Below are positions 7,434-30,977 of a DNA stretch of 64,000 bases, one piece after another. This DNA comes from Methylovorus glucosotrophus (GTDB taxonomy: Bacteria; Pseudomonadota; Gammaproteobacteria; Burkholderiales; Methylophilaceae), in contig NZ_VMSE01000001.1 in NCBI RefSeq assembly GCF_009858335.1, positions 124,001-188,000 of the forward strand, in the 5' to 3' direction. Below the pieces are notes generated by a model. That model ran no database searches. It worked only from the letters and a program-made list of their open reading frames with translations, and was not told the origin of the DNA. The position numbers and the translations under genes were made by a program. Each line of letters begins with the position of its first letter. Within the stretch, counting starts at the first letter, position 1.

Positions 7434-7513
7434 ACTGTACGCTCCTGTAGAACGGCTTGCATTGTGTTAGTCATGAAATGGAGCTCATGATTTTCATGAG
7501 AATTCCGTCATGA
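7434..7513 (-). promoter_or_regulatory. pqqA copy 1 control region: four-box TCATGA array and -10-like hexamer
   Basis: TCATGA occurs at 7471-7476, 7485-7490, 7494-7499 and 7508-7513, giving spacers of 8, 3 and 8 nt: a symmetric array. The central pair forms the dyad CTCATGA-TTT-TCATGAG (7484-7500). A TACAGT hexamer (minus strand, 7439-7434) lies 31 nt downstream of the proximal box, with no good -35 before it, which suggests an activator-dependent promoter. The same three-box core sits upstream of pqqA copies 2 and 3. The binding protein is not known to me. Confidence 0.7.
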
Positions 7514-7526
7514 TGCACGTGGAGGG

Positions 7527-7667
7527 TTAGTAGCCTTTGTTCTTGTCTGCAGAGTTTTCCAGGGCTTCGCCGCCCTTCTGAATGTCTTTGCCGGCGCCGC
7601 TCATGGTATTGCAGGCGGTCAACAACATGAAGGAACAGAGGCAGAGGATACTGACGATTTTATTCAT
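7527..7667 (-). CDS. entericidin-like small lipoprotein
   Basis: A 46-residue protein from ATG 7667 with a GGAG ribosome binding site. It has a short signal peptide ending in a lipobox (MLLTACNTMS) and a mature part GAGKDIQKGGEALENSADKN, the pattern of the entericidin A/B family of small outer-membrane lipoproteins. Entericidins are tied to envelope stress and programmed lysis in enterobacteria; for betaproteobacterial versions the role is untested. It lies just upstream of the pqqA copy 1 array on the same strand and could share readthrough. Confidence 0.88.
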   Translation of the reverse strand: MNKIVSILCLCSFMLLTACNTMSGAGKDIQKGGEALENSADKNKGY

Positions 7668-7775
7668 GATTTATTCTCCAGTCGCGAATTGAGGGGGTAT
7701 TTACACCCGCTCAATGTAACGGGACCTCTGCCGTTCAACATTCAGCGCGTGGCTGAAATCGCTGTCAGACAGCGC

Positions 7776-8972
7776 CTACTTTTTCCCCCACAGTCGTTGC
7801 GCTGCCAGCAAGCCAATCGCGGCAAAGACCACCAGACCCACGGCTACGGTGGAATGGATGGCAGGCATACCTTCTTTTTCCAGGATGGTATACAGGCCTA
7901 CCATCAGCAGCATGCAGATATTTTCAAACAGGTTTTGCACGGCAATGGCGTGCCCTGCCCCTACCGTGGCGTGGCCACGTTCCTGCAGCAAGGCATTCAG
8001 CGGCACCACATAAAAACCACCGCAAGCGCCGATAAGTATCAGCGCGGCTATCGCCAGGTAAAGATTGGACACATAGGCAAAGCCCACAATCAGCAAACCG
8101 ATCAGCACGCCAGCGGGCAAGGCACGATTCACCGAATGCAGCTGTACATAGCGGGCGGCGGCAAATGCGCCGAGCGCGATGCCGATGGCGACACCGCCAC
8201 TCAGGTTGGCGGGAGTGCTGAGGTCGGCAATGCCCAGCGCCACTGGCACCCAGGCCACCAGCAGAAAGCGCAGGGTGCTGCCTGCTCCCCAGAAGATGCT
8301 AGTACCAATGAGTGAAAAGCGCGCGTCCGGATTTTTCAGCAGCGTGCTGGTGGCGATGACAAAATCCCTGACCAATGCTGGCAGCGATACCCGGCTCAGG
8401 GCATGGGCGGCGGGCAGGCGTGGAATGAAGAGGTTGGCGACGGCGGCGACCAGATAACAGGCAGCAATGGCGGCGAGCGCTCCGGTGACGGAGTGATCGG
8501 CCAGCCAGCCGCCCAATACGGCGCCCAGCAGAATGGCGACGATGGTGGAGCCTTCCATCATGCTATTGGCTTTGACCAGATGTTGGGGCCCGACCAACTC
8601 GCTGAGGATGCCGTATTTGGCTGGGGAATAGGCGGCAGCACCCAGCCCGACCATGCCATAAGCCAGCAGGGGGTGCAGGCCGCACAGCATGGCAGCCGCA
8701 CCGATGAACTTCATGCCATTGGCAATCAGCATCACGCGGCCTTTGGGCAACGCATCGGCCAGTGGGCCGACGAAAGGGGCGAGCACGATAAAGGCCACGA
8801 CAAAAAATTCCTGCAGCAAGGGCAGCTGCCAACCTGGGGCAGATTGCGATTTAAGCAGCGCAATCGCGGCGAACAGCAAGGCGTTATCCGCCAGAGCCGA
8901 AATAAACTGGGCGATGAGGACGGCGGTCATGCCGCGCGCGGGAATCGCCGATGGGGTGGAGGTGGAATGCAT
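7776..8972 (-). CDS. lplT: lysophospholipid transporter LplT (MFS)
   Basis: 398-residue major facilitator protein with about 12 membrane segments. N-terminal FISALADNALLFAAIALL and the loop LGAAAYSPAKYGILSELVGP are typical of LplT. LplT flips lysophosphatidylethanolamine into the cytoplasm for reacylation by Aas. The aas gene is immediately upstream on the same strand (115-bp gap), which confirms the assignment: in enterobacteria lplT and aas are also paired. Inner membrane. Confidence 0.93.
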   Translation of the reverse strand: MHSTSTPSAIPARGMTAVLIAQFISALADNALLFAAIALLKSQSAPGWQLPLLQEFFVVAFIVLAPFVGPLADALPKGRVMLIANGMKFIGAAAMLCGLHPLLAYGMVGLGAAAYSPAKYGILSELVGPQHLVKANSMMEGSTIVAILLGAVLGGWLADHSVTGALAAIAACYLVAAVANLFIPRLPAAHALSRVSLPALVRDFVIATSTLLKNPDARFSLIGTSIFWGAGSTLRFLLVAWVPVALGIADLSTPANLSGGVAIGIALGAFAAARYVQLHSVNRALPAGVLIGLLIVGFAYVSNLYLAIAALILIGACGGFYVVPLNALLQERGHATVGAGHAIAVQNLFENICMLLMVGLYTILEKEGMPAIHSTVAVGLVVFAAIGLLAAQRLWGKK

Positions 8973-9087
8973 GCAAACTCTCTGATTTTTATGGTTGGCT
9001 TGAATGGATGGCTTAAATGGTTAAGGGTGACTTAAGCCCGCATCGACAAAGGATGGGGCTTTATTGCGGGTCGCAGGCTTATCCGGC

Positions 9088-11223
9088 TCATGCTTCGGCC
9101 GCCATGGTACGCAATGTCACGTAATCGGTTTTGCCCGTCCCCAGCAAAGGCAGTGCTTCCAGGGTAATGATTTTTTTCGGCACCGCCAGATCCGGACTCC
9201 CCAGCTTGCGGGCTGCGGCCTGCAGGCTATCGCGGGTCAAGCTGCTATCGGTGCTGAACAGCACGATGTTTTCACCACGCTGTGGATCCGGCTGGGTGCT
9301 GGCGGCATGCTGATGCTCGGGCGAGGCTGCATGTGCCAGGGCCTCCACGGTTTCCAGCGACACCATCTCGCCGGCAATTTTGGCAAAGCGCTTTACCCGG
9401 CCCAGAATGCGGATAAAGCCCTGGGCATCAATATCCACCACATCCCCGGTGTCATACCAGCCATCCGCGGGTGTTTGCAGCACGCCTGGCTGGTCATACA
9501 GGTAATAGCCCAGCATGACGTTGGGGCCACGCACCAGTAGGCGCTCGCCTTGCTCTATGCCGGGGATGCTTTCCAGCCGGGTTTCCATGCCTGGCAGCAT
9601 GCGGCCCACGCTACCGGTCTGGTTTGCCATGGGTGTATTGACCGCCAGCACGGGCGCGCACTCGGTAGCGCCATACCCTTCCAGAATGCGAATGCCGAAT
9701 TTATCGGCCCAGACTTTGCGGACTTCTTCATTCAGTTTTTCTGCGCCAGCGACTACGTAGCGCAAGCGGTAGAAGTCATAGGGGTGCGCGAATTTGGCAT
9801 AGTTGCCCAGAAAGGTGCTGGTGCCGAACAGCACCGTGCAGCCACGGTCGTAAATCACTTCCGGAATCACGCGGTAATGCAGCGGGGATGGGTAGACAAA
9901 CAGCTTGCTGCCGGTGACCAGCGGCATGATGGCACCGCAGGTAAAGCCAAAGGCATGGAACAGCGGCAGTGCCATCATGAATTTATCGGCAGGCGAGAAA
10001 TCGATGATGGCGGCAATCTGGGCAATATTGGACAAGATGCTGTGATGCGAATGCACCACGCCCTTGGGCTTGCCTTCGGAACCTGAAGTGAACAGCACCA
10101 CGGCCGGGTCATGCGGGTTGGCATGCGGCACGGCCAGTCGCGGCAACCATAGTGCAAAGCCTATCAGCCACAGCTTGTCCCAACCGCTCAGGCTGGGCAG
10201 CAAATCCTCCAGATAGACCAGATGCACATTTTCCAAACCTGCTACCGTCTCCTCCAGCTTGGCGGCGGAGATGAATTTGCGTGATGAGATGACGGTGCGG
10301 ATATTACCGGCGATGATGGCATTCTGCAGTCCCGAGCTGCCCGCCGTGTAATTCAGCATGGCGGGCACGCGCCTGAAGGCGCTCATACCAAAGATAAGGC
10401 AGATGGTATTGGTGACATTCGGCATCAGCACGCCAACGGTTTCGCCAGCACTGGTAATCTTGGCGCTCAGGCGCCCCAGCGCCAGGCTTTTTTTCAAAAG
10501 ATCGCCATACGACTCTTCAATCTGCTGCATGTCTTCCACCAGCCGCGTGCGGCGGCCATGAATGGAAATGGCGTCCAGCAGCGAGCCAAACAAGGTTTTG
10601 ACCGGGCGCGACTTGAACAGCATATCCTGCATGATGTCGCGCATGCCCTCGCCTGCCAGCTTGCGGCGGGCTCTGGCATTGGCGGCTTCTGGCATGGGGA
10701 GGTGCGTGGTCGGCAAAATGGTGAGCGATACCTTGGGGAAAAGCTGGCGTGGATAATTGCCACCGGAGAGGCGGCTGAAGTAACTGCGGGCGGCGCCATC
10801 CACGCGTACTGGCAGGATGGTGGCGCCGGTTTTGGCGGCGACGAAGCCCGGGCCGTCATACACTTTCATCAGGCTACCGGTCAGGGTGATGCGGCCTTCG
10901 GGGAAAATCACCACGTTCTCCCCTGCCTCCAGCAGGCGGATGATTTTCTTCATGGCGAGTGGATTGCTGGGGTCGACCGCCAGGTGCGGCACCATGCGCA
11001 GAATCAGGCGGAACAGCGGGCTCTGCAATACGGTGGTGTGCACCACAAAGGTCGCTCGCAATGGCAAAAACAGTCCGAGCAGCAGGCCATCAAGAAACGA
11101 TTCGTGATTGGCCACAATCAGCAGCTTTTGCTGTTCCTGGTCTTGCGACGGCAGATGTTGCCTGCCCCGCACTTCAACCCGAAACACTATTCCGCACAGC
11201 AGTTTTAATATCTTGGCCACCAT
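9088..11223 (-). CDS. aas: bifunctional acyl-ACP synthetase / 2-acylglycerophosphoethanolamine acyltransferase Aas
   Basis: 711 residues. The N-terminal PlsC-type acyltransferase domain shows the HX4D box (NHESFLDG, His near 40) and FPEGRIT near 110. The C-terminal ANL adenylate-forming domain shows LFTSGSEGKPKGVVHSHHS, GYGATECAPV, GWYDTGDVVDID, the hinge RVKRFAKIAGEMVS and TGKTDYV with the catalytic Lys. Aas activates a fatty acid on ACP and reacylates lysophospholipid taken up by LplT, repairing membrane lipids. It starts 11 bp after the arsR-type gene, so the three form an operon. Inner membrane. Confidence 0.95.
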   Translation of the reverse strand: MVAKILKLLCGIVFRVEVRGRQHLPSQDQEQQKLLIVANHESFLDGLLLGLFLPLRATFVVHTTVLQSPLFRLILRMVPHLAVDPSNPLAMKKIIRLLEAGENVVIFPEGRITLTGSLMKVYDGPGFVAAKTGATILPVRVDGAARSYFSRLSGGNYPRQLFPKVSLTILPTTHLPMPEAANARARRKLAGEGMRDIMQDMLFKSRPVKTLFGSLLDAISIHGRRTRLVEDMQQIEESYGDLLKKSLALGRLSAKITSAGETVGVLMPNVTNTICLIFGMSAFRRVPAMLNYTAGSSGLQNAIIAGNIRTVISSRKFISAAKLEETVAGLENVHLVYLEDLLPSLSGWDKLWLIGFALWLPRLAVPHANPHDPAVVLFTSGSEGKPKGVVHSHHSILSNIAQIAAIIDFSPADKFMMALPLFHAFGFTCGAIMPLVTGSKLFVYPSPLHYRVIPEVIYDRGCTVLFGTSTFLGNYAKFAHPYDFYRLRYVVAGAEKLNEEVRKVWADKFGIRILEGYGATECAPVLAVNTPMANQTGSVGRMLPGMETRLESIPGIEQGERLLVRGPNVMLGYYLYDQPGVLQTPADGWYDTGDVVDIDAQGFIRILGRVKRFAKIAGEMVSLETVEALAHAASPEHQHAASTQPDPQRGENIVLFSTDSSLTRDSLQAAARKLGSPDLAVPKKIITLEALPLLGTGKTDYVTLRTMAAEA

Positions 11224-11234
11224 GAAATCTCCCT

Positions 11235-11540
11235 TCAGATCGTAGTCTTGATGTAAGCCAGCACGCCCTCAAGCGCTTCTGTCATCATCTTTTTATTAAT
11301 ATGGAAAAACACTTCCTTGCCGATTTTCTCGCTTTGCAGCGCGCCTGCTTCGCGCAATACGCGCAGATGATGGCTCACTGCGGTGCGGCTCAAGGTCGAC
11401 GCGGCCACGATCTGGCCGATGTTGAGGCGCTCATCGGGCTCAAAGGCCAGCAGTATGCGCTGGCGCTGTTCATCGCCCAGGGCGATGAACAGTTTCGAGG
11501 TATCTGCCCATTCAGATGGAATCTGCAAGATGGTTTTCAT
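11235..11540 (-). CDS. ArsR-family winged-helix repressor controlling the aas-lplT operon
   Basis: 101-residue winged-helix protein with the ArsR layout: LFIALGDEQRQRILLAF, the recognition helix STLSRTAVSHHLRVLREAGAL, and the beta-wing SEKIGKEVFFHINK. It contains no cysteine at all, so it is not a classical thiol metal sensor of the ArsR/SmtB type. ATG 11540 abuts a long dyad at 11539-11566, the expected autoregulatory operator. It is the first gene of arsR-aas-lplT, so it probably represses the whole unit, perhaps in response to a lipid or envelope signal (inference). Confidence 0.88.
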   Translation of the reverse strand: MKTILQIPSEWADTSKLFIALGDEQRQRILLAFEPDERLNIGQIVAASTLSRTAVSHHLRVLREAGALQSEKIGKEVFFHINKKMMTEALEGVLAYIKTTI

Positions 11541-11566
11541 AACTAAATAATTAGTTATTTAGTTAT
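11539..11566 (-). promoter_or_regulatory. operator dyad overlapping the arsR-type gene start
   Basis: ATAACTAAATAA (11539-11550) and TTATTTAGTTAT (11555-11566) are perfect 12-bp arms around TTAG. ArsR-family repressors bind such AT-rich dyads. The site overlaps the start codon and upstream sequence of the repressor gene, so binding would block initiation of the arsR-aas-lplT transcript. Confidence 0.8.
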
Positions 11567-11679
11567 GTTCGTCAAGTATATTATTCAAACCACCCCAATC
11601 CGCCTCTGCCAACGTTGAGATTGCCTCTGCAAGCGGCTAAGATGCTTATCTTTCATGATTTCATAGATAGCGATACTGC

Positions 11680-12411
11680 GTGGCACCCTTACTGCGACAA
11701 TCCGAACTGTTGGACAATATAGCCCGGGCGGGCTTCAGTTTTGTGGCAGGCGAGGCCATGCAAGCGTGGTTGCTGGCGCAGGCCGAAGATGCCCTGAGTG
11801 ATTGGTCTGCGTTTGCTGCCAGCTGGGAAGCCATGCCGCTGGATCAGTACATGGCCGATGGTGGACGATATCGCCGCCGTCGCTATGCCACCCTCAGTGC
11901 GCCAGCGCAAGGTGGTGACATTGTGCTCGAGCCGCATCAGCCGCATTACCAGAGCCTGGACTACAACCCGCTGAATGGCGGTGTTGCGCGCGAGTTTGAG
12001 CCCATACCAGCGCACATCATGCAGGGTAACAGCATGCGTAACATCCTGCGCTTCTGTCGCAAGATGTTCAGCCGCATGCTGCCTGACAAGGCGTGGCATA
12101 TCGAATGCCATCAATTCCGCATTGAAGCCAGTGCTGAGCTACATGGCAAACCAACCCCCGAAGGCATACATCGGGATGGTGTCGATTTTGTGCTGGTCAT
12201 GATGGTGAAGCGCGTGAATATTTCCAGCGGCACCACCACCATGCACGACCTCGAACACAAAACCCTGGACAGCTTTACCCTGACCAAGCCGCTGGATTGC
12301 GCCATCGTTAACGACAGGCGCTGCATGCATGGCGTGACGCCGGTCGAGCAGATCGATCCGGCGCATCCTGCCTATCGTGACGTGCTGGTGGTTACCTTTC
12401 GCGCCAAATAA
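11680..12411 (+). CDS. 2-oxoglutarate/Fe(II) dioxygenase family protein (PF10014-like)
   Basis: 243 residues from GTG 11680. The double-stranded beta-helix metal triad is visible: HxD in EGIHRDGVDF near residue 164 and the distal His in NDRRCMHGVTPV near 212, followed by a C-terminal Arg in VVTFRAK. This family includes free amino-acid hydroxylases such as L-isoleucine 4-hydroxylase, but the substrate here cannot be read from sequence. Single gene, divergent from the arsR unit; the GTG start has no strong ribosome binding site, so it could begin slightly downstream. Confidence 0.8.
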   Translation: MAPLLRQSELLDNIARAGFSFVAGEAMQAWLLAQAEDALSDWSAFAASWEAMPLDQYMADGGRYRRRRYATLSAPAQGGDIVLEPHQPHYQSLDYNPLNGGVAREFEPIPAHIMQGNSMRNILRFCRKMFSRMLPDKAWHIECHQFRIEASAELHGKPTPEGIHRDGVDFVLVMMVKRVNISSGTTTMHDLEHKTLDSFTLTKPLDCAIVNDRRCMHGVTPVEQIDPAHPAYRDVLVVTFRAK

Positions 12412-12555
12412 GCTGCCCGTGCATGAACAGGCGTTAAATGGCGGCTCTGTTTACGTCATTTAACACAGTTGTGGTAGCGTATGCTGACAAAAGCCAGAAT
12501 GCTGTTTGAAACTCCGGTGCTGCGGCATCGGCCATGGAGCTAAGCGCGAGCCAGT

Positions 12556-14424
12556 ATGCAAGAAAAACCGACCCCCATCGAGATTGCCAGGCAGGCATTG
12601 ATGCAGCTTGCCTCGCGCAAAGTCCCGCCTACGCCGGATAATTTCCGCACGGTTTATGACGAGATTGCCGGCGTCGTATCTACCAATGAAACCCTGGAAC
12701 TGGCCCATGTGCTGGACAAGGTTTTGCACGATGCGGGCAAGCAACGCCCCAAGTACATTGCCGCCGCCCAATCCATCGCCACGCTCATCGAGAAAAAAGA
12801 CTGGTCCAGGCTGGAAGACCAGCTCATCAAGCTATTGCCCCTGGGCGCAGCAGGTGGCGATGAAACCAGCTGGCCCGTGGTCATCCGCAACCTGCTGAAG
12901 CAGCTGGAAGTGAGCCACAAGGGCGTCACCCTGACGCGCAAGAAAGAAGGCCTTAACCGGGTGCTGACCAACTTCGGCAGTGACCCCGATGTCTTGCCGC
13001 AAAAGATTCAATCCCTGGTCAATTCATGGGGCCAAGGTTCGGTGGCCGATCATGTGCCTGGCGACGGGCCGCAGGTGCTGGAAGGCGAAGCGGAAACCAT
13101 AGGCGAAACGCCCACCCCTGCACCCAGCAAGTCGCTGTATGGCAAAAAGCCCGCCGAATATTGGCGCGAGATGCTGGTGCGTACCATGGAGCTGGTGCTG
13201 ATTCCGCAACTGCATTCCCTGCCCGAGCCGGAAGCCAAGGCCAAACAGCTGGTCAAGGATATCAATGCCGCCACCAATGAAACCCAGATCAAGCGTATTG
13301 CTGAAGAATTGAAGAGCGTACTGTTTACCCTGGAGATGCATGGCGATCAGCAGAACCGCCTGCATGAAGCCTTGTTGCAGTTATTGCGACTGCTGAACAA
13401 CAGCATGGGTGAGCTGGTGCTGGAGGATAAATGGCTGCATGGGCAGACCAAAATCGTGCAGGATATCCTCGAAAAACCGCTGGATCTTACCCGGCTCTAT
13501 GACGCCGAAAGCAGCTTGAAAGAGTTGCTGTATAAGCAGGGGCAGATCAAGCCACGTCTGATTGAAGCCAAGGACTCGCTGAAGCGCATGGCCGAAATCT
13601 TTGTGGACAGACTGGCCGAGATGGACACCGATACTGGTGAATACCAGAACAAACTGAATGGTTATCGCGACCGCATCACTTCGACCGAAGATCTGGTGGA
13701 ACTCAACTCGGTGATCGACAGCCTGCTCAACGATACCCGCAGCATAGGCCTGAGCATACAGCGTTCCAAGGATGCGCTGGTGGATGCGCAGCAACGCGCT
13801 GACGAGGCTGAGAAGCTGATTGATGAGCTGACGCGCCGTCTGGACCATATCAGCGAAGTGGCGCATGAAGACTACCTCACCGGCACACTCAACCGCCGCG
13901 GCATGGATGAAGCCATGGAGCGCGAATTTGCACGGGCCGACCGGCATGGTACGCCGCTCAGCATTGCCATGATGGATATCGACCACTTCAAGCAGCTCAA
14001 CGATAACCTGGGACATGCGACTGGCGACCAGGCCTTGATCCATCTGGTGCGCATCGTTAAATACTCGCTGCGCAATACCGATGTGCTGGCGCGCTACGGT
14101 GGCGAGGAGTTCATCATCATACTGCCCAGTACCAAGCAGGATGAGGCCATGGACATCATGAAACGCGTACAGCGGGATCTCACCAAAAACTTCTTCATGC
14201 ATCGCAACGAGCGTGTGCTGATCACCTTTAGTGCCGGCGTGGCCGAACGGCTACCGGGCGAGGGGCCGGAAACCATCGTGCCGCGTGCTGATGCCGCGCT
14301 CTACAAGGCCAAGCACAGCGGTCGCAATCAGGTGATTGGTGCAGAAGCCTTGCTGGAAGAGCCCGAGATACGTGAAATTACCGATGCCAGTGCGGCAGAG
14401 GCTAACGGTAACAATGCGGCTTAA
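12556..14424 (+). CDS. cytoplasmic diguanylate cyclase (GGDEF) with long helical N-terminal region
   Basis: 622 residues. The N-terminal ~430 residues carry no membrane segment and are largely helical, with coiled-coil stretches before the catalytic domain (LVDAQQRADEAEKLIDELT). The GGDEF domain begins at YLTGTLNRRGMD. It has the active site GGEEF near 515 and an intact product-inhibition site RNTD five residues before it, so it should make cyclic-di-GMP with feedback control. The signal input is unknown. The next small secreted-protein gene overlaps its 3' end by 11 bp. Confidence 0.92.
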   Translation: MQEKPTPIEIARQALMQLASRKVPPTPDNFRTVYDEIAGVVSTNETLELAHVLDKVLHDAGKQRPKYIAAAQSIATLIEKKDWSRLEDQLIKLLPLGAAGGDETSWPVVIRNLLKQLEVSHKGVTLTRKKEGLNRVLTNFGSDPDVLPQKIQSLVNSWGQGSVADHVPGDGPQVLEGEAETIGETPTPAPSKSLYGKKPAEYWREMLVRTMELVLIPQLHSLPEPEAKAKQLVKDINAATNETQIKRIAEELKSVLFTLEMHGDQQNRLHEALLQLLRLLNNSMGELVLEDKWLHGQTKIVQDILEKPLDLTRLYDAESSLKELLYKQGQIKPRLIEAKDSLKRMAEIFVDRLAEMDTDTGEYQNKLNGYRDRITSTEDLVELNSVIDSLLNDTRSIGLSIQRSKDALVDAQQRADEAEKLIDELTRRLDHISEVAHEDYLTGTLNRRGMDEAMEREFARADRHGTPLSIAMMDIDHFKQLNDNLGHATGDQALIHLVRIVKYSLRNTDVLARYGGEEFIIILPSTKQDEAMDIMKRVQRDLTKNFFMHRNERVLITFSAGVAERLPGEGPETIVPRADAALYKAKHSGRNQVIGAEALLEEPEIREITDASAAEANGNNAA

Positions 14425-14791
14425 ATCCATCTCAGCCTGGGTGCTGTCAGCGTCTCTGGCAATGCATGCCATGAGTGCCGCGGCGGTGGACGCAGCCGCA
14501 GTTCAGGCGGCATTCAATCAGCGGTACCAGACGTTTTTCGGGGCAGACAGCAACTCTCTGCTGCCACTGCCTGCCATCGACAAGCAGGACTGGAAGCGCA
14601 TGCGCGAGAAAAAAGCCTTGCGTCAGGTGTATCAGGAGCCCGGCAAGTATTACAACAGCAAGGTGTACGTATTTACCCTGTATCAGGATGAAGACGGCGG
14701 AGCTTATTACCTCGATGCCACCGGCGGCTTCTGGGGAATGGATGAGCTGGTGTACGGGCCCTTGTCTGCCCAGGATGTCGGCCTTCCCTGA
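14414..14791 (+). CDS. hypothetical exported protein
   Basis: 125 residues from ATG 14414, overlapping the diguanylate cyclase gene by 11 bp. N-terminal signal peptide (MRLKSISAWVLSASLAMHAM, cleavage likely after the following AAA-type segment). The mature part has basic and aromatic segments (QDWKRMREKKALRQVYQEP; YYNSKVYVFTLYQDEDGGAYYLD; GGFWGMDELVYGP) and no family I recognise. The overlap implies translation coupled to the cyclase, so it may work in the same pathway; that is inference. An in-frame upstream ATG at 14336 would bury the signal peptide and is less likely. Confidence 0.75.
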   Translation: MRLKSISAWVLSASLAMHAMSAAAVDAAAVQAAFNQRYQTFFGADSNSLLPLPAIDKQDWKRMREKKALRQVYQEPGKYYNSKVYVFTLYQDEDGGAYYLDATGGFWGMDELVYGPLSAQDVGLP

Positions 14792-14831
14792 ATCAGGTTG
14801 ATCGGCCAGATGTGAGTGCTGGCGCTACTAC

Positions 14832-17180: not shown

Positions 17181-17357
17181 TTAACCCCAATCGTTAACAG
17201 GTGTAAACCATACCGTTAGCTGCATATGTTTATCTCTGCACAGCCTGTGGCCTGACTATCGCGTTGATGTGATGCCCATGACGCCAATGTCACACGGAAT
17301 TTCAAGCATATTTCGCTCCAGTTTCCCGTAAAATGCGTTTTTAGACCGAACGCTGCT

Positions 17358-18596: not shown

Positions 18597-18809
18597 TGCC
18601 TGCCGGACGCCTTCTTAGGCAAATAATTCTGGCAATACGCTAAAGAAATCAATTTGCTGGACGATATCAGCTTAGTTTGGCGGTTTGCTATCCGCAAATT
18701 CCAAATAAACTGCGAGTGCGCGGGAATCTTTTGATTTTCGTGTGCTCTTAATGGCGCTGAAACACAATTTCAGCCCGAGTATTAACCCGATATCCCACAA
18801 GGAATTGAC

Positions 18810-18989
18810 ATGCATGCCGCAAGTTTTGACTATCTGATCCCCGCTCCTGCGTTTCAGCCGGAGTATCTGAATGTGTTGGAAATCCCCGACCGCTTCACGC
18901 AAACCACGCTGTATAAAACCCAGCAACGCGAGCTTGAGCTACGCCGCGAAATCGTCAAGATGACGCTAGCCAGCGGCGATTGCGTCTGA
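18810..18989 (+). CDS. small hypothetical protein, 59 residues
   Basis: Open frame ATG 18810 to TGA 18989 with an AAGGA ribosome binding site 6 nt before the ATG. The protein begins MHAASFDYLIPAPAFQPEYL and has a charged, helical C-terminal half (TLYKTQQRELELRREIVKM). No signal peptide or membrane segment; no family recognised. The good start context and lack of a competing frame make it a credible gene. The 213 bp before it (18597-18809) hold no other gene I can support. Confidence 0.65.
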   Translation: MHAASFDYLIPAPAFQPEYLNVLEIPDRFTQTTLYKTQQRELELRREIVKMTLASGDCV

Positions 18990-19971: not shown

Positions 19972-20047
19972 GGTGTCTCCTGTTGCATGTGTTGGCGGGC
20001 GATGATCAGCATGGTGTGCCATCATCAGGCCTGCCGGGCGGTGTGGT

Positions 20048-24200: not shown

Positions 24201-25126
24201 GATAGCCACTCCTGCACAAAGGGCTGGTAAAACCCGAGGTCATGCGGCGCAGCGCCACGGATGGCACAGAGCGCGCTGGCAAACTGGTTGGCGCGGGTGA
24301 GGGTGAGGCTGGCTTCCCATCCCTGCAGATGGCCCAGTATATAGACGGCGGCAAAGGCATCGCCCGCGCCTACCGTATCCTGCAAAGGCTGCGCCATGGC
24401 TTGTGGCCCGGTTTCCTGCAACTCACCGCTGGCATTCAATTGCCACGCGCCCTGCTCGCCGCGTGTGATCACCACCAGTTTGAGATTGAAGCGCTTGAGC
24501 ATCGCCATTGCCAGCTCAGGCAACGACTTTCCGGGCAGGCGCAGCAGCACTGCCAGCGCGCCCAGTTCGTCTTCATTCATCTTGACAATATCGGCACGCA
24601 ACAGCGAACGTCGCACCGTATGTTTGTCATACCAGGGCGCACGCAGGTTGAGATCAAGAAAGCGCGGGCTGCGGGCGTCGTTGAGAAAATTATCCAGGGC
24701 AAGGCGCGACTCCATATTGCGCTGGGCCAGCGTGCCAAAGTAGACCAGGTCAGGCTTGATGGACATGGTCAGCATGTGCGTCACACCCGCGTGGATATAG
24801 TCGTATGCCTGATACGGCAGGATTTCAAAGCGATGACCACCGGCATCCATATGCACAGTGACCTGGCCGGTGGGATATTGGGGATCGCACTGGATACCGG
24901 AGGTATCCATGCCGCGGGCGTTCATCTCGGCCAGCAATTCTTCGCGCAGGGCATCGTTTCCCGTGCGGGAAATCATCACGGGGTTAAGACCAAAGCCCTG
25001 CAGATGCCGCGCCACATTGAAAGGAGCGCCGCCGAGAATATGGCCATCAGGAAAAACATCGGCTAATACTTCGCCAAACAAGGCAACGCATGAGCCCATG
25101 TCTTTATGGTGAGGTTGTAATTGCAA
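24197..25126 (-). CDS. fruK: PfkB-family fructokinase of the sucrose cluster
   Basis: 309 residues. PfkB marks: FGEVLADVFPDGHILGGAPFNVARHL near the N-terminus and the anion hole/catalytic Asp in DTVGAGDAFAAVYILGHL. In methylotroph sucrose operons this kinase phosphorylates fructose released by amylosucrase so it can re-enter metabolism. Start: TTG 25126 has a good AAGGGA site 7 nt upstream, while the later ATG 25099 has none, so I chose TTG. It is the first gene of fruK-sps/spp-ams. Confidence 0.9.
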   Translation of the reverse strand: MQLQPHHKDMGSCVALFGEVLADVFPDGHILGGAPFNVARHLQGFGLNPVMISRTGNDALREELLAEMNARGMDTSGIQCDPQYPTGQVTVHMDAGGHRFEILPYQAYDYIHAGVTHMLTMSIKPDLVYFGTLAQRNMESRLALDNFLNDARSPRFLDLNLRAPWYDKHTVRRSLLRADIVKMNEDELGALAVLLRLPGKSLPELAMAMLKRFNLKLVVITRGEQGAWQLNASGELQETGPQAMAQPLQDTVGAGDAFAAVYILGHLQGWEASLTLTRANQFASALCAIRGAAPHDLGFYQPFVQEWLS

Positions 25127-25536
25127 TGGAGTTCCCTTTTGCTGTTGTTTTTAAAAGATAATCTACATTCAGCCACTCCTGACATGGTGGGATGGTCAGG
25201 GTGTTGTAAGTTTCCCCTGTTACCTTTTAGTAGGCTTTTGGGCGGCAAAGTTTCGATTTTTTTTAAAAGCAGGCAACACGAGCCCAAGCTCGCAAACGAA
25301 TATGGCGCCATCTGCCACCAAGTGATGATTACTTTTTTTAACATTACGCGATTACGCTTGATGTTAAGCTTATGGTCGTTCATGCAACCATCTCGGGTGG
25401 CATGGCTCCAATATGGCGATTTAGACCAGCATCAAGCTCACAAGAACCCGTGTTGATTAACAAACAGCCCTCTTCGCAACTGCCCACCTCTGCCGCGGCC
25501 GCTTTTTCCTGGGATAAACGTCCCAAGGGTGATCGC
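25127..25536. other. gene-less divergent promoter region
   Basis: 410 bp between the sucrose operon and the TonB-like gene. It is AT-rich near 25250-25270 and 25320-25370 and has a small CGAGC/GCTCG hairpin at 25279-25292. Open frames here have poor start context. I see no confident promoter hexamers, riboswitch or RNA gene. The TonB-like gene could start as early as GTG 25450. Confidence 0.5.
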
Positions 25537-26376
25537 ATGCTGCAGATTCGTATCAGCCGCAATACGCTGATCGCGATTGTGATTTCGCTGCTGATACACG
25601 CGATTCTGCTGTTTACTGTCATTATTCATCCCCTGGATTCGGGCCCGGAAGCGGAGCCTGCCGAATCCAGCCAGATTGTGATGCAGCTGGGCCCCAAGGC
25701 GGCGCCCAAAGCTGCGGAGACGCCGCAACCCAGTACGCAGGCCGAGCCTGAGCCCGCCCCGGCGCCTAAAGCGCCCCCGAAGGCTGTTAGCAAACCGGTA
25801 AGCAAGCCAAGCAAACCGACTTCGCCTCCCGTCATGGCGGCTCAGCCGCCTGCACGCGATCAAGCTCCCACTCCGCTGGATAGGCGCGTTCCACCCCAGC
25901 CTGCGCCGGAGCCGGATATGTCGCCTCCACCGACCGACATGATGAGCTACGTCAAACAGCAGCAGGACAGGCGACGTGCGCAGGGCGATCCTTCCATCCT
26001 GAATGAAGACGCCGCGGCCAAGGATCGTGGCCCCACAGCGGACGAGATTCGCGAGGCCAATATTCAGCGCAACCTGAAGGAAGCCGGCGGCGGTGTGTTC
26101 CAGATTACCCAGATGAGCTCACGCGGAGCCAAATTTGTATTCCGCGGCTGGCGCTACTTCAGCAACCCCCGCACCGAATATATCGAGGTGGAAGCTCCAC
26201 CTGATGGCGATATCCGCCGGGCGGTGGTCAAACGGATGATCGAGATTATCCGGCGTGATTACAAAGGGGATTTTACCTGGGAGTCCAAGCGTCTCGGGCG
26301 GGTGGTGACTTTGTCTGCACGTCCCCAAGACAATGATGGCCTGGAAGATTTCCTGATCAAAGATTTCCAGTGGTAG
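25537..26376 (+). CDS. TonB-like protein: one membrane anchor, proline-rich periplasmic spacer, C-terminal domain
   Basis: 279 residues from ATG 25537, which has AAGGG 7 nt upstream; in-frame GTG 25450 could extend it. A single N-terminal membrane helix (LIAIVISLLIHAILLFTVII) is followed by a long Pro/Ala/Lys-rich stretch (about residues 40-125) and a folded C-terminal region (GAKFVFRGWRYF, YIEVEAPPDGDIRRAVVKRM). The layout is that of TonB/TolA-type energy transducers, but the C-terminus lacks the usual TonB YP motif, so the partner is unknown. Single gene. Confidence 0.7.
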   Translation: MLQIRISRNTLIAIVISLLIHAILLFTVIIHPLDSGPEAEPAESSQIVMQLGPKAAPKAAETPQPSTQAEPEPAPAPKAPPKAVSKPVSKPSKPTSPPVMAAQPPARDQAPTPLDRRVPPQPAPEPDMSPPPTDMMSYVKQQQDRRRAQGDPSILNEDAAAKDRGPTADEIREANIQRNLKEAGGGVFQITQMSSRGAKFVFRGWRYFSNPRTEYIEVEAPPDGDIRRAVVKRMIEIIRRDYKGDFTWESKRLGRVVTLSARPQDNDGLEDFLIKDFQW

Positions 26377-26686
26377 CCCGCGGCAGAGCCCTGATCTGGG
26401 GCGCCCTGCTATTCATCGTTCATAATCCTTGAATCAGATGCGAACCATTTTTAATGATGAGACTCCCTTATGTTGGGGAATCACTTTTTAGTGAAGCATC
26501 ATCAATAAAAAAACGGGAAGACAGCAGAGTTAGGCTCTGCAAGTGCTTAGCCTGGCGGGCTGGTCAATACAGGCTTTTTTGCATGCAATGGGATCCTTCA
26601 CCGATAAAATGCGGCCCCGCTTACCGCACTGTAGCTGATTTTCAATGCAGTGATGTTCAATAACAATCTTCACAAAAAACTGCGCT
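26377..26686. other. gene-less stretch before the YbaL-type antiporter
   Basis: 310 bp without a supportable gene. It holds a GCAGAG/CTCTGC hairpin near 26523-26540 and the weak terminator-like hairpin at 26549-26580. No known riboswitch signature is recognised. Confidence 0.5.
26549..26580 (+). terminator. weak terminator-like hairpin in the leader of the antiporter gene
   Basis: AGCCTG (26549-26554) pairs with CAGGCT (26570-26575) and is followed by TTTTT. The stem is only 6 bp with a 15-nt loop. It could end the TonB-like transcript or act in the leader of the antiporter 107 bp downstream. Confidence 0.4.
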
Positions 26687-28378
26687 ATGGACCATAACAT
26701 CACTCTCATCTCCACCGTTGCGGCGGGCTTCGGCCTGGCGCTGGTGTTCGGCTTTATTGCTGAAAAAATCAAGTTGCCCGCTCTGGTGGGCTATCTATTG
26801 GCCGGTATTCTGATTGGCCCGGCCACCCCAGGCTTTGTTGCCGATACCGGCATCGCTTCCCAATTGTCTGAAATCGGCGTCATGCTGCTCATGTTTGGCG
26901 TGGGCCTGCATTTCTCGATTGCGGATCTCATGGCGGTCAAACGCATTGCCTTGCCTGGTGCGGTCGTGCAAATGACGCTGGCAACCGTACTGGGCGCCAG
27001 TGTGGCCTATTGGTGGGGCTGGACTCTGGGCGAGGGGCTGATTTTTGGCCTGGCGCTGTCATGTGCGAGTACGGTGGTGCTGCTAAAGGCGCTGGAGGCG
27101 CGGGGCATCGTCGACAGCATGAACGGCAAAATCGCCGTGGGCTGGCTGGTAGTGGAAGACCTTGCCACGGTCCTGGTGCTGGTATTGATGCCACCGCTGG
27201 CCGGCATACTGGGCGGTACCGCTCAGGTGGAAAGCGCCGCCCCGCTGTGGCAAACCATAGGCTTTACCCTCTTGCAGGTTTCATTTTTCATTGCATTCAT
27301 GCTGGTGGCCGGCAAGCGTTTGTTGCCCTGGTTGCTGTGGCATGTGGCAAAGACCGGCTCACGTGAGTTATTCACCCTGGCGGTGATTGCGGCTGCCATC
27401 AGCATTGCGTTTGGCGCAGCCAAGCTGTTCAGCGTGTCCTTTGCCCTGGGCGCTTTCTTTGCGGGCATGGTGATGCGCGAATCCGAATTCAGTCATCGTG
27501 CCGCAGAAGAATCCCTGCCCTTGCGCGACTCGTTTGCCGTGCTGTTTTTTGTGTCGGTCGGCATGCTGTTTGACCCCGTGATTCTGGTCAAGGAGCCATT
27601 CAGTGTGCTGGCGGTGGTCGCGATTATTATTGTTGGCAAATCCATTGCCGCCATGGCGATCGTGCTGGCATTCCGCTATCCGCTGAATACGGCGCTGACG
27701 GTGGCTGCCAGCCTGGCGCAAATTGGCGAGTTTTCCTTCATTCTCGCCGGGCTTGGCATGAGCCTGGGTATCCTGCCCGCCGAGGGCATGAGCCTGGTAT
27801 TGGCGGGGGCGCTGATTTCGATTGCGCTCAATCCTCTGGTATTTTCTATGGCGAAACCCATCGAAAAATGGCTGCTGAGCTTTTCAAAACTGGCGCGGCA
27901 TCTCGATCGCCGTACCGACCCGTTTGCCGAACTGCCCATGAGCACCGAACGCAAGCTGCTTGAAGGCCAGGTGGTGCTGGTGGGCTATGGCCGTGTCGGG
28001 CGGCGTATTGCCCAGGCATTGACCGAGCAAGGCATACCGTTTGTGATTGCTGAGCAGAACCGTGAGATTGTGGAAGGTCTGCGCAAAAAAGGCATCGCTG
28101 CAGTGTCGGGTAATGCCGCCGATCCTGCCGTTCTGGTGCAGGCGCATATTCAGAATGCGTCCATGCTGGTAATTGCCACGCCGGAAACCATCGATTTCCG
28201 CAAAATGTCCGAGGCGGCTTCCACCTTGCAACCCAGCATTGAAATTGTGGTGCGCACCCATAATGAAGAGGAATCTACCCTGCTGAGAAAGGATGGCGTA
28301 GGCACAGTGTTCTATGGCGAGGAGGAGCTGGCGAAGGGCATGACCAAGCACATACTGGATCGTTTCGTGCAGTCCTAG
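26687..28378 (+). CDS. ybaL: CPA2-family cation:proton antiporter with TrkA-N/RCK domain, YbaL/Kef-like
   Basis: 563 residues. The first ~390 form a 12-13-helix Na+/H+ exchanger domain (ALVGYLLAGILIGPATPGF; SEIGVMLLMFGVGLHFS; VGWLVVEDLATVLVLVL with conserved Asp). The C-terminal RCK/TrkA-N domain begins at VVLVGYGRVGRRIAQAL and binds a nucleotide through GxGxxG. Length and the C-terminal EIVVRTHNEEE-YGEEELA pattern fit YbaL better than KefB/C. It probably exports K+ or Na+ in exchange for protons under nucleotide control. Inner membrane; a strong bidirectional terminator follows. Confidence 0.9.
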   Translation: MDHNITLISTVAAGFGLALVFGFIAEKIKLPALVGYLLAGILIGPATPGFVADTGIASQLSEIGVMLLMFGVGLHFSIADLMAVKRIALPGAVVQMTLATVLGASVAYWWGWTLGEGLIFGLALSCASTVVLLKALEARGIVDSMNGKIAVGWLVVEDLATVLVLVLMPPLAGILGGTAQVESAAPLWQTIGFTLLQVSFFIAFMLVAGKRLLPWLLWHVAKTGSRELFTLAVIAAAISIAFGAAKLFSVSFALGAFFAGMVMRESEFSHRAAEESLPLRDSFAVLFFVSVGMLFDPVILVKEPFSVLAVVAIIIVGKSIAAMAIVLAFRYPLNTALTVAASLAQIGEFSFILAGLGMSLGILPAEGMSLVLAGALISIALNPLVFSMAKPIEKWLLSFSKLARHLDRRTDPFAELPMSTERKLLEGQVVLVGYGRVGRRIAQALTEQGIPFVIAEQNREIVEGLRKKGIAAVSGNAADPAVLVQAHIQNASMLVIATPETIDFRKMSEAASTLQPSIEIVVRTHNEEESTLLRKDGVGTVFYGEEELAKGMTKHILDRFVQS

Positions 28379-28399
28379 CCTTACGTAGCTTTCGCCCAT

Positions 28400-28429
28400 A
28401 AAAAAACGGAGGGAAACCTCCGTTTTTTT
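28400..28429. terminator. bidirectional rho-independent terminator between ybaL and pqqA copy 2
   Basis: A7-CGGAGG, loop GAAA, CCTCCG-T7. The 13-bp stem with A and T tracts works in both directions and separates the convergent ybaL and pqqA copy 2 transcripts. Confidence 0.93.
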
Positions 28430-28474
28430 ATTCTCATCAGGCGCTACAAGCGGGCGCTTGGATGTGAGTGACGT

Positions 28475-28546
28475 TTAGCGATTGCAAACGTACATCGTTA
28501 CTTCAAAGCCAAAACGCATTTCGGTAGCTTCTGGTTTGGTCCACAT
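28475..28546 (-). CDS. pqqA: PQQ precursor peptide PqqA, copy 2
   Basis: 23 residues, identical in amino-acid sequence to copy 1 but with five synonymous codon differences (Lys4, Phe12, Gly13, Thr17, Arg23), so it is not a recent perfect duplicate and the peptide has been kept by selection. Glu15 and Tyr19 of the crosslinked core are present. AGGAG lies 8 nt upstream of ATG 28546. It is isolated, with no pqqB-E genes nearby, and has its own terminator at 28400-28429 and TCATGA array upstream. Confidence 0.96.
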   Translation of the reverse strand: MWTKPEATEMRFGFEVTMYVCNR

Positions 28547-28622
28547 GATAGTTCTCCTCATTGGTTTGGTTAAGTCATCCGGGTAATGAATCAGCGATAA
28601 CTTGCTGTATTCGTATGACTGC

Positions 28623-28689
28623 AGTATGCGCCTTCGGTTTTATTAAACCCCTGCTGCCATTCATGATTCACGCCTCATGATTTTCATTA
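28623..28689 (-). promoter_or_regulatory. pqqA copy 2 control region: TCATGA array and -10-like hexamer
   Basis: TCATGA at 28661-28666 and 28675-28680 and the variant TCATTA at 28684-28689, with the same 8-nt and 3-nt spacers as at the other two pqqA copies. A CATACT hexamer (minus strand, 28628-28623) lies 32 nt downstream of the proximal box. The proximal box is 115 bp from the ATG. The fourth box seen at copy 1 is absent. Confidence 0.65.
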
Positions 28690-28783
28690 GACATCGCTAG
28701 GTGCAATTGGCGCTGGGTGGAACTTAATCGCTCAGCGCGTACACCTACAAATACATTCATACCGATAAATAAGGAGAGAGACC

Positions 28784-29068
28784 ATGATGAAATCGTGTCT
28801 TGTGATCGCAGGTCTGTTGGCTTTGCCCATGGCAGCCATGGCCGATACCGAGTTCTATGGCACCATCCAGAGCAAGCCGGATAACAACCTGGGTGTCTGG
28901 GTGATCGGTGACCAGCAGATAGAGGTGAATGAAAAAACCAAACTGGAGGACGACCATGGTCCGCTGGCCATTGGCGCTTGTGTTGAGGTGGAACACAAGA
29001 ACGGACTGGCTAAAGAAATCGAAAGCGAGAAGACAGAGAAGTGTACAAAACCGGCCGGCAAGCTCTGA
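28784..29068 (+). CDS. small exported DUF5666-like protein
   Basis: 94 residues; ATG 28784 or 28787 after an AAGGAGAG site. Signal peptide MMKSCLVIAGLLALPMAAMA, then FYGTIQSKPDNNLGVWVIGD, IEVNEKTKL and GACVEVEHKNG, the strand pattern of DUF5666-type small OB-like domains. It is periplasmic by prediction; function unknown. It is divergent from pqqA copy 2, so the TCATGA array at 28661-28689 lies about 95 bp upstream of this gene too and could influence both directions. A terminator follows. Confidence 0.75.
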   Translation: MMKSCLVIAGLLALPMAAMADTEFYGTIQSKPDNNLGVWVIGDQQIEVNEKTKLEDDHGPLAIGACVEVEHKNGLAKEIESEKTEKCTKPAGKL

Positions 29069-29091
29069 TCAATTCCCATGCATCACGACCA

Positions 29092-29122
29092 TAAAAAAAC
29101 GCCAGCATATGCTGGCGTTTTT
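29092..29122. terminator. bidirectional terminator between the DUF5666-like gene and hup
   Basis: ACGCCAGCAT (29099-29108) pairs with ATGCTGGCGT (29109-29118), flanked by A and T tracts on both sides, suited to ending both convergent transcripts. Confidence 0.9.
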
Positions 29123-29149
29123 ACCTGACTGAAAGAACCGTGGTTCAGT

Positions 29150-29422
29150 TTAGTTCAGGGCATCCTTCAAAGCCTTGCCGGCGCGGAAGGCTGGAGCCTT
29201 GCGTGCAGCAATCTTGATTTCTTTACCGGTTTGCGGATTGCGGCCAGTACGGGCAGCGCGTTCCGAAACTGCGAAGGTACCGAAACCGATCAGGGTTACG
29301 GAGTCACCCTTCTTCAAAGCGCCAGTCACACTGCTGGTGAATGCATCAATCACCTTGCCAGCGGCAGCCTTGCTAATACCAGCGCTTGTTGCAATTTCTT
29401 CAATCAATTCTTGTTTGTTCAT
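29150..29422 (-). CDS. hupB: DNA-binding protein HU
   Basis: 90 residues from ATG 29422 ([20 protein letters not shown]), the standard HU length; the in-frame upstream codon at 29437 would add five residues not seen in HU. The beta-arm segment [21 protein letters not shown] and the C-terminal [15 protein letters not shown] are canonical. HU bends and compacts DNA as a dimer. Beta-subunit type by sequence impression. Single gene with its own terminator. Confidence 0.96.
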
Positions 29423-29567
29423 AGTGTTTTCAATCAAGGTTGTTGGATGGAGCGCCTATCTTAACCTAGTCTGGCAAGCTTTGCGGCACTTCATATACAA
29501 ATTTTTTTAAAATTTCCTGTGATTGGTCACATTGAATATTTTTGCGAAGCGTAAGCCACTTCCGGTG

Positions 29568-29613
29568 AATACTTATGCAAACCAGCAATCGCTCGTCTTT
29601 TTGCATAAGTATT
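29568..29613. repeat. perfect 14-bp inverted repeat, 18-nt spacer
   Basis: AATACTTATGCAAA at 29568-29581 and TTTGCATAAGTATT at 29600-29613 are exact reverse complements. There is no following U tract in either direction. It lies about 145 bp upstream of hup. It may be a paired operator site or an RNA hairpin; no protein partner can be named. Confidence 0.6.
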
Positions 29614-29749
29614 TATTAAATTAATGATTTTTAAATGCTTTTTTTCGAACTTCTCAGTTTGTGGCGCGCCGATGTCTTATCGACATGAGGGGGAGTACAA
29701 AAAATCAGGAGTGGTCAAAAAATGTCACATGCGCTTGTGACCATGCATA

Positions 29750-29785
29750 AAAGGCCGGAAAACCACTCAGGATTTCCCGGCCTTT
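29750..29785 (-). terminator. terminator of the dienelactone hydrolase gene
   Basis: AAAGGCCGG (29750-29758) pairs with CCGGCCTTT (29777-29785), extended by AAA/TTT around a bulged C. On the minus strand the stem ends in CCTTTTATG, a short U run. Confidence 0.65.
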
Positions 29786-29837
29786 CATTTATGGACTGTC
29801 AATTTCTACCGCTTGCTATGCCAGCCTAGTGGCGGCA

Positions 29838-30581
29838 TCAGGCTTTTTTCAGCGTGTTGCCAAACAGCTGCAGTGCCAGCTGGTAGCCTGTATTGGCGAG
29901 TTGTGGGTCATAGCGCTCGCCCTCATCACGCATGAAGGCATGCTGGCCATTGAACTCATGCCAGGTGAATGACAGGTTGGCTTCGGTCAGTTTTTGATAG
30001 ACCTCGGCGCGACCAGCGGTCGGAATATGGTTGTCCTGCTTGCCCCAGATCATCAGCAGCTCACCCTTGATATCGGCCAGGCGCTCCATGCTGTGCTGAC
30101 CTGGTTTGTTCGGGATAACCGCTGTATGCAGATCGGTGGCGTAGAAGCAGGCGGTTGCCTTGATCTCAGGCTGAAGGGCTGCACGGAATGCCAGATGGCC
30201 GCCAATGCAGAAGCCCATGGCGCCAATGTCACCACTGCACCACGCTTGTTGTTTCAGGTAGCTGATCATCGCTACGTTATCGGTATCGTAGCCTTGGACA
30301 TCCTTGGCTGACTTGTCTGCATTGCCTTTGTCGCGACCTGCATCGTCATAGGCCAGCACGGTGCCAATCGGATTAAGCTCATGGAACACTTCGGGCACCA
30401 ACACGGCATAACCATGGCCAGCCATGATTTTGGCCGCGCGTTCAATCGGGCCGGTCTGCTGGAAAATTTCTGAATAGAACAGAATAGCCGGGAAGCGACC
30501 CTCGCCTTTAGGACGGTGTACATAGGTACGCATCACACCGGTGGGTGTAGGCAGGTCAACGATGTGGCTTTGAATCAGCAT
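29838..30581 (-). CDS. dienelactone hydrolase family protein
   Basis: 247-residue alpha/beta hydrolase. The nucleophile is a Cys in GAMGFCIGGHLAF, as in dienelactone hydrolase; the catalytic His is in FNGQHAFMRDEG and the Asp is likely in the QDNHIP segment. Family members hydrolyse dienelactones or related esters. No aromatic degradation genes are nearby, so the physiological substrate is unknown. Cytoplasmic, single gene. ATG 30581 has a weak GGAGGA-type site upstream (AGCTGGAGGATTCTC on the minus strand). Confidence 0.88.
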   Translation of the reverse strand: MLIQSHIVDLPTPTGVMRTYVHRPKGEGRFPAILFYSEIFQQTGPIERAAKIMAGHGYAVLVPEVFHELNPIGTVLAYDDAGRDKGNADKSAKDVQGYDTDNVAMISYLKQQAWCSGDIGAMGFCIGGHLAFRAALQPEIKATACFYATDLHTAVIPNKPGQHSMERLADIKGELLMIWGKQDNHIPTAGRAEVYQKLTEANLSFTWHEFNGQHAFMRDEGERYDPQLANTGYQLALQLFGNTLKKA

Positions 30582-30694
30582 GAGAATCCTCCAGCTAAAG
30601 TAATAAAACGGTTTTTTATGTAATGTTCTTTATTTTAGCTTGCTGAGACAGGTTTTCGGAAAATTAAAATGCAAGAGAATGGCGTTTTTTCAGA

Positions 30695-30722
30695 TAAAAA
30701 AACAGGAGCCTAGGCTCCTGTT
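30695..30722 (-). terminator. terminator of pqqA copy 3
   Basis: AACAGGAGC (30701-30709) pairs with GCTCCTGTT (30714-30722); on the minus strand the stem is followed by TTTTTTTATC. It lies 46 bp after the pqqA stop. Confidence 0.9.
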
Positions 30723-30768
30723 CCACGCCAGCAACAATGTGCCAGTTATGTCCCTGCTCTTTGGCAGA

Positions 30769-30840
30769 TTAGCGATTGCAAACGTACATGGTCACTTCAA
30801 AGCCAAAACGCATTTCTGTTACTTCTGGTTTGATCCACAT
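30769..30840 (-). CDS. pqqA: PQQ precursor peptide PqqA, copy 3 (variant)
   Basis: 23 residues beginning MWIKPEVTEMRFGFEV. It differs from copies 1 and 2 at residue 3 (Thr to Ile) and residue 7 (Ala to Val), both outside the crosslinked Glu15-Tyr19 core, which is intact. The ribosome binding site is weaker (AAGGG 8 nt from ATG) than at the other copies. Orphan, single-gene unit with its own terminator and TCATGA array; it lies downstream of the siderophore-receptor gene on the same strand but 401 bp from it. Confidence 0.95.
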   Translation of the reverse strand: MWIKPEVTEMRFGFEVTMYVCNR

Positions 30841-30909
30841 ATTGATAGCCCTTGTAACCGTTGAAATTCAAACTTAGGAGAGTTAAACGCTTGGGCGTTT
30901 GACGAAACC

Positions 30910-30977
30910 ATTATGTGCTGGACCAGGGTATCTGCGGCAGAGACAAACTCATGAAACAGGGCTCATGATTTTCATGA
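30910..30977 (-). promoter_or_regulatory. pqqA copy 3 control region: TCATGA array and -10-like CATAAT
   Basis: TCATGA at 30949-30954, 30963-30968 and 30972-30977, spacers 8 and 3 nt as at the other copies; the distal pair again forms CTCATGA-TTT-TCATGAG. CATAAT (minus strand, 30915-30910) lies 33 nt downstream of the proximal box, and the ATG is 109 bp from that box. Confidence 0.7.

Follow-up and report, generated by a model that had tools for sequence, protein, structure and literature searches.

PQQ is the cofactor of methanol dehydrogenases and is sold commercially, and one regulator that has been connected with it, AgmR of Pseudomonas, is of the LuxR type. According to the accessible portions of the literature, the regulation of PQQ synthesis is unclear (PMC9851590), the response regulator AgmR is believed to regulate the pqq operon and belongs to the control of alcohol oxidation (ped/exa) in Pseudomonas (PMC12997753), and pqqA1A2 of Methylobacterium aquaticum rise on methanol (PMC5784242). 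By description, the candidate regulator presented below resembles AgmR in being a response regulator tied to pqq, and the accessible part of PMC12997753 describes no binding motif for AgmR. Systems of the MxaYX type have methanol dehydrogenase genes as their targets (PMC5018670, in its available sections). The MxaYX/MoxYX systems (Paracoccus; MxaY of Methylomicrobium buryatense) are likewise kinase-regulator pairs of methylotrophs, and the kinase of our candidate pair matches the LapD_MoxY_N domain marginally (26.2 bits against a cut-off of 25; this domain is not listed for the related kinase at locus L378). Unlike them, the pair considered here is linked to pqq genes, and no site above 8.6 bits was found in 13 mxaF/xoxF-type upstream regions (those passing the open-frame filter, of 30 loci). 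CrbR (ErdR) acts from a 17-bp imperfect inverted repeat, the ACTU motif, upstream of an RpoD promoter; it differs in its half-sites, in its acetate-use target genes and in its position, -52 to -36 at acs (PMC5715377, available text), and the NCBIfam ErdR model gives our regulator 58.9 bits against a cut-off of 390. The best NCBIfam model for the regulator is that of GacA/UvrY/SirA (NF007018, 210.9 bits, below the cut-off of 280), from which our system differs by its pqq gene context and by a plain PAS kinase instead of a hybrid one. No description of the site or the regulator was found in the accessible parts of the literature searched, which covered few subscription journals, and the main text of the PqqU paper (PMC12124388) has no mention of a response regulator, two-component system, histidine kinase or promoter. 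Both proteins are of a kind usual in NarL-type two-component systems. The proposed regulon at pqq genes would likewise be of a known kind, one in which a two-component system acts through its own operator.

The multiple pqqA copies are said, in work of Ge from 2015, to respond differently to the environment. The window analysed here is a 64-kb stretch of Methylovorus glucosotrophus DNA from a genome of 2.9 Mb in three contigs (G000), and it carries three pqqA copies. Methylophilaceae have 3 to 12 copies, and the five of G000 equal the number given for Methylovorus glucosotrophus SIP3-4; the available part of that study of multiple pqqA genes describes neither a shared operator nor a regulator (PMC4109929). 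The initial annotation of the window described an array, TCATGA-N8-TCATGA-N3-TCATGA, upstream of all three copies. The arrays are indeed present at 7471-7499 (no mismatch), 28661-28689 (one, TCATTA) and 30949-30977 (none), and the distances given for copies 1, 2 and 3 also hold: 100, 115 and 109 bp from the proximal box to the ATG, and 31, 32 and 33 nt to the -10-like hexamers TACAGT, CATACT and CATAAT. These arrays are real and beyond chance, since the two strands of the window contain 7 matches with up to three mismatches versus a mean of 0.04 (maximum 1) in 100 dinucleotide shuffles. Genome-wide, G000 has 15 such three-box matches, and all five with no or one mismatch precede a pqqA. These genes are the three copies of the window, the first of which has a match on either strand, and a fourth copy that lies beyond the window at C1:48718. 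The fifth pqqA (C1:1339591) heads the pqq operon and has the inner doublet only. This doublet is found upstream of all five pqqA genes, with a single change at one copy, so that the core belongs to five copies and not to three as first described. The degenerate palindrome YTMMKKAWWWTMMKKAR has 8 exact distinct sites in G000, 5 of which are the pqqA sites. The features are listed in Table 1.

Table 1. Coordinates of the pqqA-associated features in the window and of the candidate kinase-regulator pair elsewhere in the same genome
Feature	Position	Strand	Basis
pqqA copy 1 (23 aa)	7300..7371	-	Pfam PqqA above cut-off
-10-like hexamer TACAGT, copy 1	7434..7439	-	53-nt offset from palindrome centre, which scores best for a -10 box over the 100 aligned upstreams
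Promoter-proximal half-site (third box), copy 1	7471..7476	-	sequence, array scan
17-bp palindrome CTCATGATTTTCATGAG, putative operator of pqqA copy 1	7484..7500	.	motif scan
Extra upstream TCATGA, copy 1 only	7508..7513	.	rare: 2 of 100 upstreams have it with at most 1 mismatch
pqqA copy 2	28475..28546	-	sequence
-10-like hexamer CATACT, copy 2	28623..28628	-	sequence
Promoter-proximal half-site, copy 2	28661..28666	-	sequence, array scan
17-bp palindrome CTCATGATTTTCATTAG, putative operator of pqqA copy 2	28674..28690	.	motif scan
pqqA copy 3	30769..30840	-	sequence
-10-like hexamer CATAAT, copy 3	30910..30915	-	sequence
Promoter-proximal half-site, copy 3	30949..30954	-	sequence, array scan
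17-bp palindrome CTCATGATTTTCATGAG, putative operator of pqqA copy 3	30962..30978	.	motif scan
Candidate kinase	G000 C1:1300592-1302310 (L299 1593-3311), outside the window		HisKA_3, HATPase domains
Candidate NarL-type regulator	G000 C1:1302307-1302948, outside the window		Response_reg + GerE domains

The three boxes are all present, but they are not equal. The conserved unit is more aptly described as a palindrome of 17 bp, CT(A/C)ATGA-WWW-TCAT(G/T)AG, with an optional TTCATGA half-site nearer the promoter. TCATGA is its own reverse complement, and the boxes therefore have no direction. Moreover, the palindrome core has a flanking C and G and its half-site variants include CTACGTA and TACTTAG, which makes the six-letter self-complementary box a by-product of the commonest half-site. 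The second element, TTCATGA or a relative of it, starts 15-16 nt past the palindrome centre; as the third box, TCATGA is exact in 35 of 100 upstreams and has at most one mismatch in 50. In the same 100 aligned upstreams the centre of the palindrome is A-rich in the sense direction, and the best -10 match starts 53 nt past it (on average 3.04 of 6 letters, against 2.50 at the runner-up offset). If that hexamer is the -10 box, the palindrome would be centred near -65 and the half-site near -46. Control by sigma-54 was considered and rejected: by eye there is no clear -24/-12 pattern, and a -10 match stands at a fixed distance instead.

The initial annotation had staked its reading on the array recurring in relatives, and the site does precede their orthologous pqqA genes. 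In the current dataset, pqqA is present in all 120 family genomes, and the exact doublet TCATGA-N3-TCATGA occurs in 85 of them, against 5 for the reversed-pattern control. Among the matches listed, the 17-mer palindrome exceeds 8 bits upstream of 100 of 110 nonredundant pqqA genes, 43 of them from family genomes and 67 from named contigs, mostly labelled with Methylophilaceae genera. The scan of named genomes gave at least 120 stretches; the motif set took L010-L014 and L016-L155, leaving out 40 of these 120. Genes with less than 160 nt upstream were also left out, as were peptides not starting with MW-x-K/R-P. The latter requirement dropped the first copies of OM43-type tandem pairs, for which degenerate sites were seen by eye in 5 of 5 read. 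The redundancy filter started from 123 distinct upstreams and removed 13 at >80% identity. Seven of the ten misses are second copies of OM43-type tandem pairs (L023, L024, L025, L027, L028, L029, L032); the others are a masked record (L087), a MAG labelled gammaproteobacterium (L123) and a weak site of 6.6 bits (L106). In a held-out test with a matrix built from half of the set, 49 of 55 upstreams exceeded 10 bits versus 14 of 1100 shuffles. Random 220-mers exceeded 10 bits in 53 of 1492 cases, a figure that is inflated because they were drawn from loci holding pqqA or pqq clusters. The site is conserved although the genes upstream of it are unrelated.

Outside the family, the site keeps company with a particular regulator. 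The pattern YTMATGAWWWTCATKAR was searched in 300 genomes of the order, where 58 were positive, 49 of them outside Methylophilaceae; the reversed-pattern control hit 6 of the 291 genomes outside the family. Two sites lie 4.4-5.5 kb apart in 14 genomes. Among 20 site regions from other Burkholderiales families, the helix signature of the regulator and pqqB each occur in 15 and both in 14, while L384, L389, L392 and L393 have neither; five regions are without the signature, one of these being cut off at the edge of its contig stretch. A typical region has pqqC, pqqE and genes for a TonB protein, a hydrolase and a kinase between or beside the sites. For 38 of 51 nonredundant sites (20 regions and 30 regulator loci), pqqA follows within 220 nt in the right direction; the pqqA pattern needed ATGTGG, and a pqqA may have gone unseen at some of the 13 sites left without a match. 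Among the matches listed, the site stands 6-70 bp past the end of the regulator gene in 21 of 27 genomes with both.

Co-occurrence points the same way. Among the matches listed outside the family, 33 genomes have site and ortholog, 16 the site only, 9 the ortholog only and 233 neither, where an ortholog means at least 59% identity (a line set by the analyst) to the query, one regulator from another family. Fisher's test gives p = 2e-23, which is overstated since the genomes are related. For 10 of the 16 site-only genomes the sites are listed, and in 9 of these genomes they are without the full CT...AG ends; chance may not explain all 16, given the control of 6/291. Among the 9 ortholog-only genomes, 4 loci were scanned; two have a site with one or two mismatches nearby, and L424 and L427 have no site above 11 bits. 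In the recognition helix, V/I at one position is the sole variation among 26 aligned members.

In G000, the kinase gene overlaps the start of the regulator gene by 4 bases, and the pair lies 37 kb from the pqqA-headed operon pqqABC(D)E. The regulator has Response_reg (104.5 bits) and GerE (66.1 bits) domains, both above cut-off, and its best solved relatives are VraR and NarL; the kinase consists of a periplasmic region, HAMP, PAS, HisKA_3 and HATPase. A receiver and a GerE domain adjoining a HisKA_3/HATPase kinase identify these as parts of a NarL/FixJ-type two-component system. The regulator ortholog was found in 14 of 14 Methylophilaceae of one scan (G000 included) and in 9 of 9 of another, 18 different genomes in all; in the 14 of the first scan its kinase is present as well. 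Relatives of about 1.3 Mb keep the site, yet they have only 2-4 GerE-type and 2-3 LysR-type regulators, the two families that the scan covered. In the nine Methylophilaceae genomes with both positions, the regulator is 28-37 kb from the site heading the pqqA- or pqqB-operon, a spacing that is perhaps a remnant of the cluster. The ortholog group, including Methylophilaceae, forms one side of a branch with support 100/99 (with a long-branch warning for one outgroup row). The initial annotation had left the regulator behind the array nameless; cluster linkage and site co-occurrence now make this pair a strong candidate.

The same annotation saw a regulon dedicated to pqqA. A regulator site at pqqA stands, but the reach of the site is wider. 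First, the palindrome precedes pqqB without pqqA in front in two Methylophilus-type genomes (L069, L072) and likewise in the OM43-type genome G034 (L278), and sites of the same type occur at matching places in G015, G064, G013 and G062. Second, in two Methylophilaceae (L266, L051) it is directly upstream of a receptor gene whose product is a homologue of the solved PQQ transporter (E 3.6e-128 for L266 and 2.2e-81 for L051, which is cut off by the locus end; 3e-142 for the receptor at L383). The NCBIfam PqqU model NF041535 gives 678.7 bits for L378 and 543.6 for L266, below the cut-off of 1200, and the receptors are therefore PqqU-like rather than certified PqqU. At L266 (G080, Methylophilus-type), two overlapping palindromes, CTCAGTATTTTCATGAAAATACTGAG, are seen at 5114-5139 just before the receptor gene, and pqqA has a single site. 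The idea that the regulator-adjacent site of other families serves a PqqU-like gene was rejected, as pqqA lies in between in the cases resolved, so that the link to PqqU comes from L266 and L051 only.

These data are best explained if the kinase and the NarL-type regulator act on the palindrome, which we consider probable, with activation of pqqA as the most likely outcome. The partner kinase would phosphorylate the NarL/FixJ-type regulator, a protein with a LuxR-type helix-turn-helix, and at each pqqA promoter a regulator dimer would bind the 17-bp palindrome, whose centre lies near -65. The TTCATGA half-site near -46, closer to the -35 region, may be occupied by further protein. The phosphorylated regulator would then most likely recruit RNA polymerase and aid the start of transcription. 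The predicted regulon comprises the dispersed pqqA copies, the pqqA- or pqqB-headed operon and, in some relatives, the PqqU-like importer of PQQ. What was computed is how conserved the site is, where it stands, how it is linked to the regulator in genomes and how often the two occur together; binding, phosphorylation, activation and a signal are what we infer from general knowledge of such families. Counting against the pair, it is 28-37 kb from the operon in Methylophilaceae and not adjoining it, and there are the 16 site-only genomes, the 9 ortholog-only genomes and the 5 of 20 regions without the signature.

The sign of control has to be weighed as well. The pair might bind the site and repress pqqA, for example when PQQ is plentiful. 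Such homeostatic repression would be logical, and the site does precede a PqqU-like importer in two relatives. We consider it unlikely, however, since the centre near -65 is upstream of the promoter at a fixed spacing to the -10 box. This position is usual for activators, and activation of pqqA is plausible given it. Moreover, CrbR, also LuxR-type, is an activator, and the 17-bp inverted repeat that it uses lies upstream (PMC5715377, accessible text).

Quite unlikely, in our view, is binding by a different regulator, such as the MoxY-type kinase/NarL-type pair beside xoxF or the LysR protein encoded near the pqqA at C1:48718. The xoxF-side pair is also present in small relatives and its kinase matches LapD_MoxY_N just above cut-off, but the 13 methanol dehydrogenase upstreams have no site above 8.6 bits, and the regulators beside xoxF do not belong to the group found in pqq clusters and are strongly diverged in OM43-type genomes. 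At locus L302 of G000 (C1:2220500-2227500), a xoxF-like dehydrogenase gene has two more NarL-type kinase-regulator pairs next to it, and the kinase of one pair matches LapD_MoxY_N marginally. The LysR gene adjoins a pqqA in G006 too; in the G000 regions read, however, just one pqqA of the five has it as a neighbour. The AcoR-like and LysR genes next to the copy at C1:48718 were rejected as candidates, being absent beside the copies of the window. That the palindrome terminates transcription of the upstream gene or acts as an RNA element is hardly credible: at C1:48718 it comes close behind the stop codon of the upstream gene and a hairpin is possible, but the spacing to the -10 box is fixed, the centre is A-rich in the sense direction, the upstream genes are unrelated and an Rfam search of window positions 7000-31400 gave no match.

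With the kinase-regulator pair as activator, the observations may be joined in a wider reading, which we offer tentatively and would put slightly short of an even chance. The pair would be a dedicated two-component system for PQQ homeostasis, ancestral to many Burkholderiales families and still located in their pqq clusters; it would sense a periplasmic signal related to alcohol or PQQ and drive the peptide, the biosynthesis operon and the importer through one 17-bp operator; and in Methylophilaceae the operator-plus-pqqA cassette would have multiplied as a gene-dosage device, while in Methylopumilus an unrelated, Cys-containing peptide of 58 aa would have captured the operator. The linkage of synthesis genes with a PQQ importer suggests one system that balances making against importing the cofactor. 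Enough detail is now in place on the site, the regulator gene, the probable regulon and the geometry of the promoter for the proposal to be tested directly.

The regulon looks PQQ-specific, with some extra sites unexplained. In G062, three copies of a gene for a 58-aa peptide without a Pfam match are found on the minus strand of L275 (2815-2991, 8736-8912 and 13872-14048). The peptides end in VFVCKQGD(T/M)VCWQRYTSAMTDCV and a palindrome variant lies about 135-142 nt upstream of each ATG; 38 relatives are in the database, and those named are from Methylopumilus. In Methylophilus L282, a motif match falls in the interval that separates a dehydrogenase gene from a MoxJ-like one. A full-score palindrome in G147 (L384 4869-4885) stands about 120 nt before a DUF1800 gene, with no pqq gene nearby in the region read, and another in G006 (L281 3945-3961) about 155 nt before the gene of a glycine-zipper envelope protein, with no pqqA between. 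A weaker site of 16.7 bits (G013, L283 3579-3595) is seen some 80 nt ahead of a gene for a secreted beta-propeller protein; at a different locus, a propeller gene of similar kind near a pqq cluster (L397 8520-9467) matches the PQQ-associated family TIGR03866 below cut-off.

Finally, the surroundings of the window copies deserve mention. The putative operator of copy 2 lies between pqqA and a divergent DUF5666 gene (28784-29068, plus strand; interval 28661-28784) and might serve that gene as well. Directly upstream of pqqA copy 3, the minus strand encodes an FptA/FpvA-like siderophore receptor, FecR and an ECF sigma factor (31242-35193). The TonB receptor among them (31242-33620) was considered as a PQQ importer and rejected, being FptA/FpvA-like with the FecR and ECF sigma factor genes upstream. 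The segment 20048-25126 resembles a sucrose-metabolism locus, with an alpha-amylase-family enzyme, a sucrose-phosphate synthase/phosphatase-like protein and a PfkB kinase.
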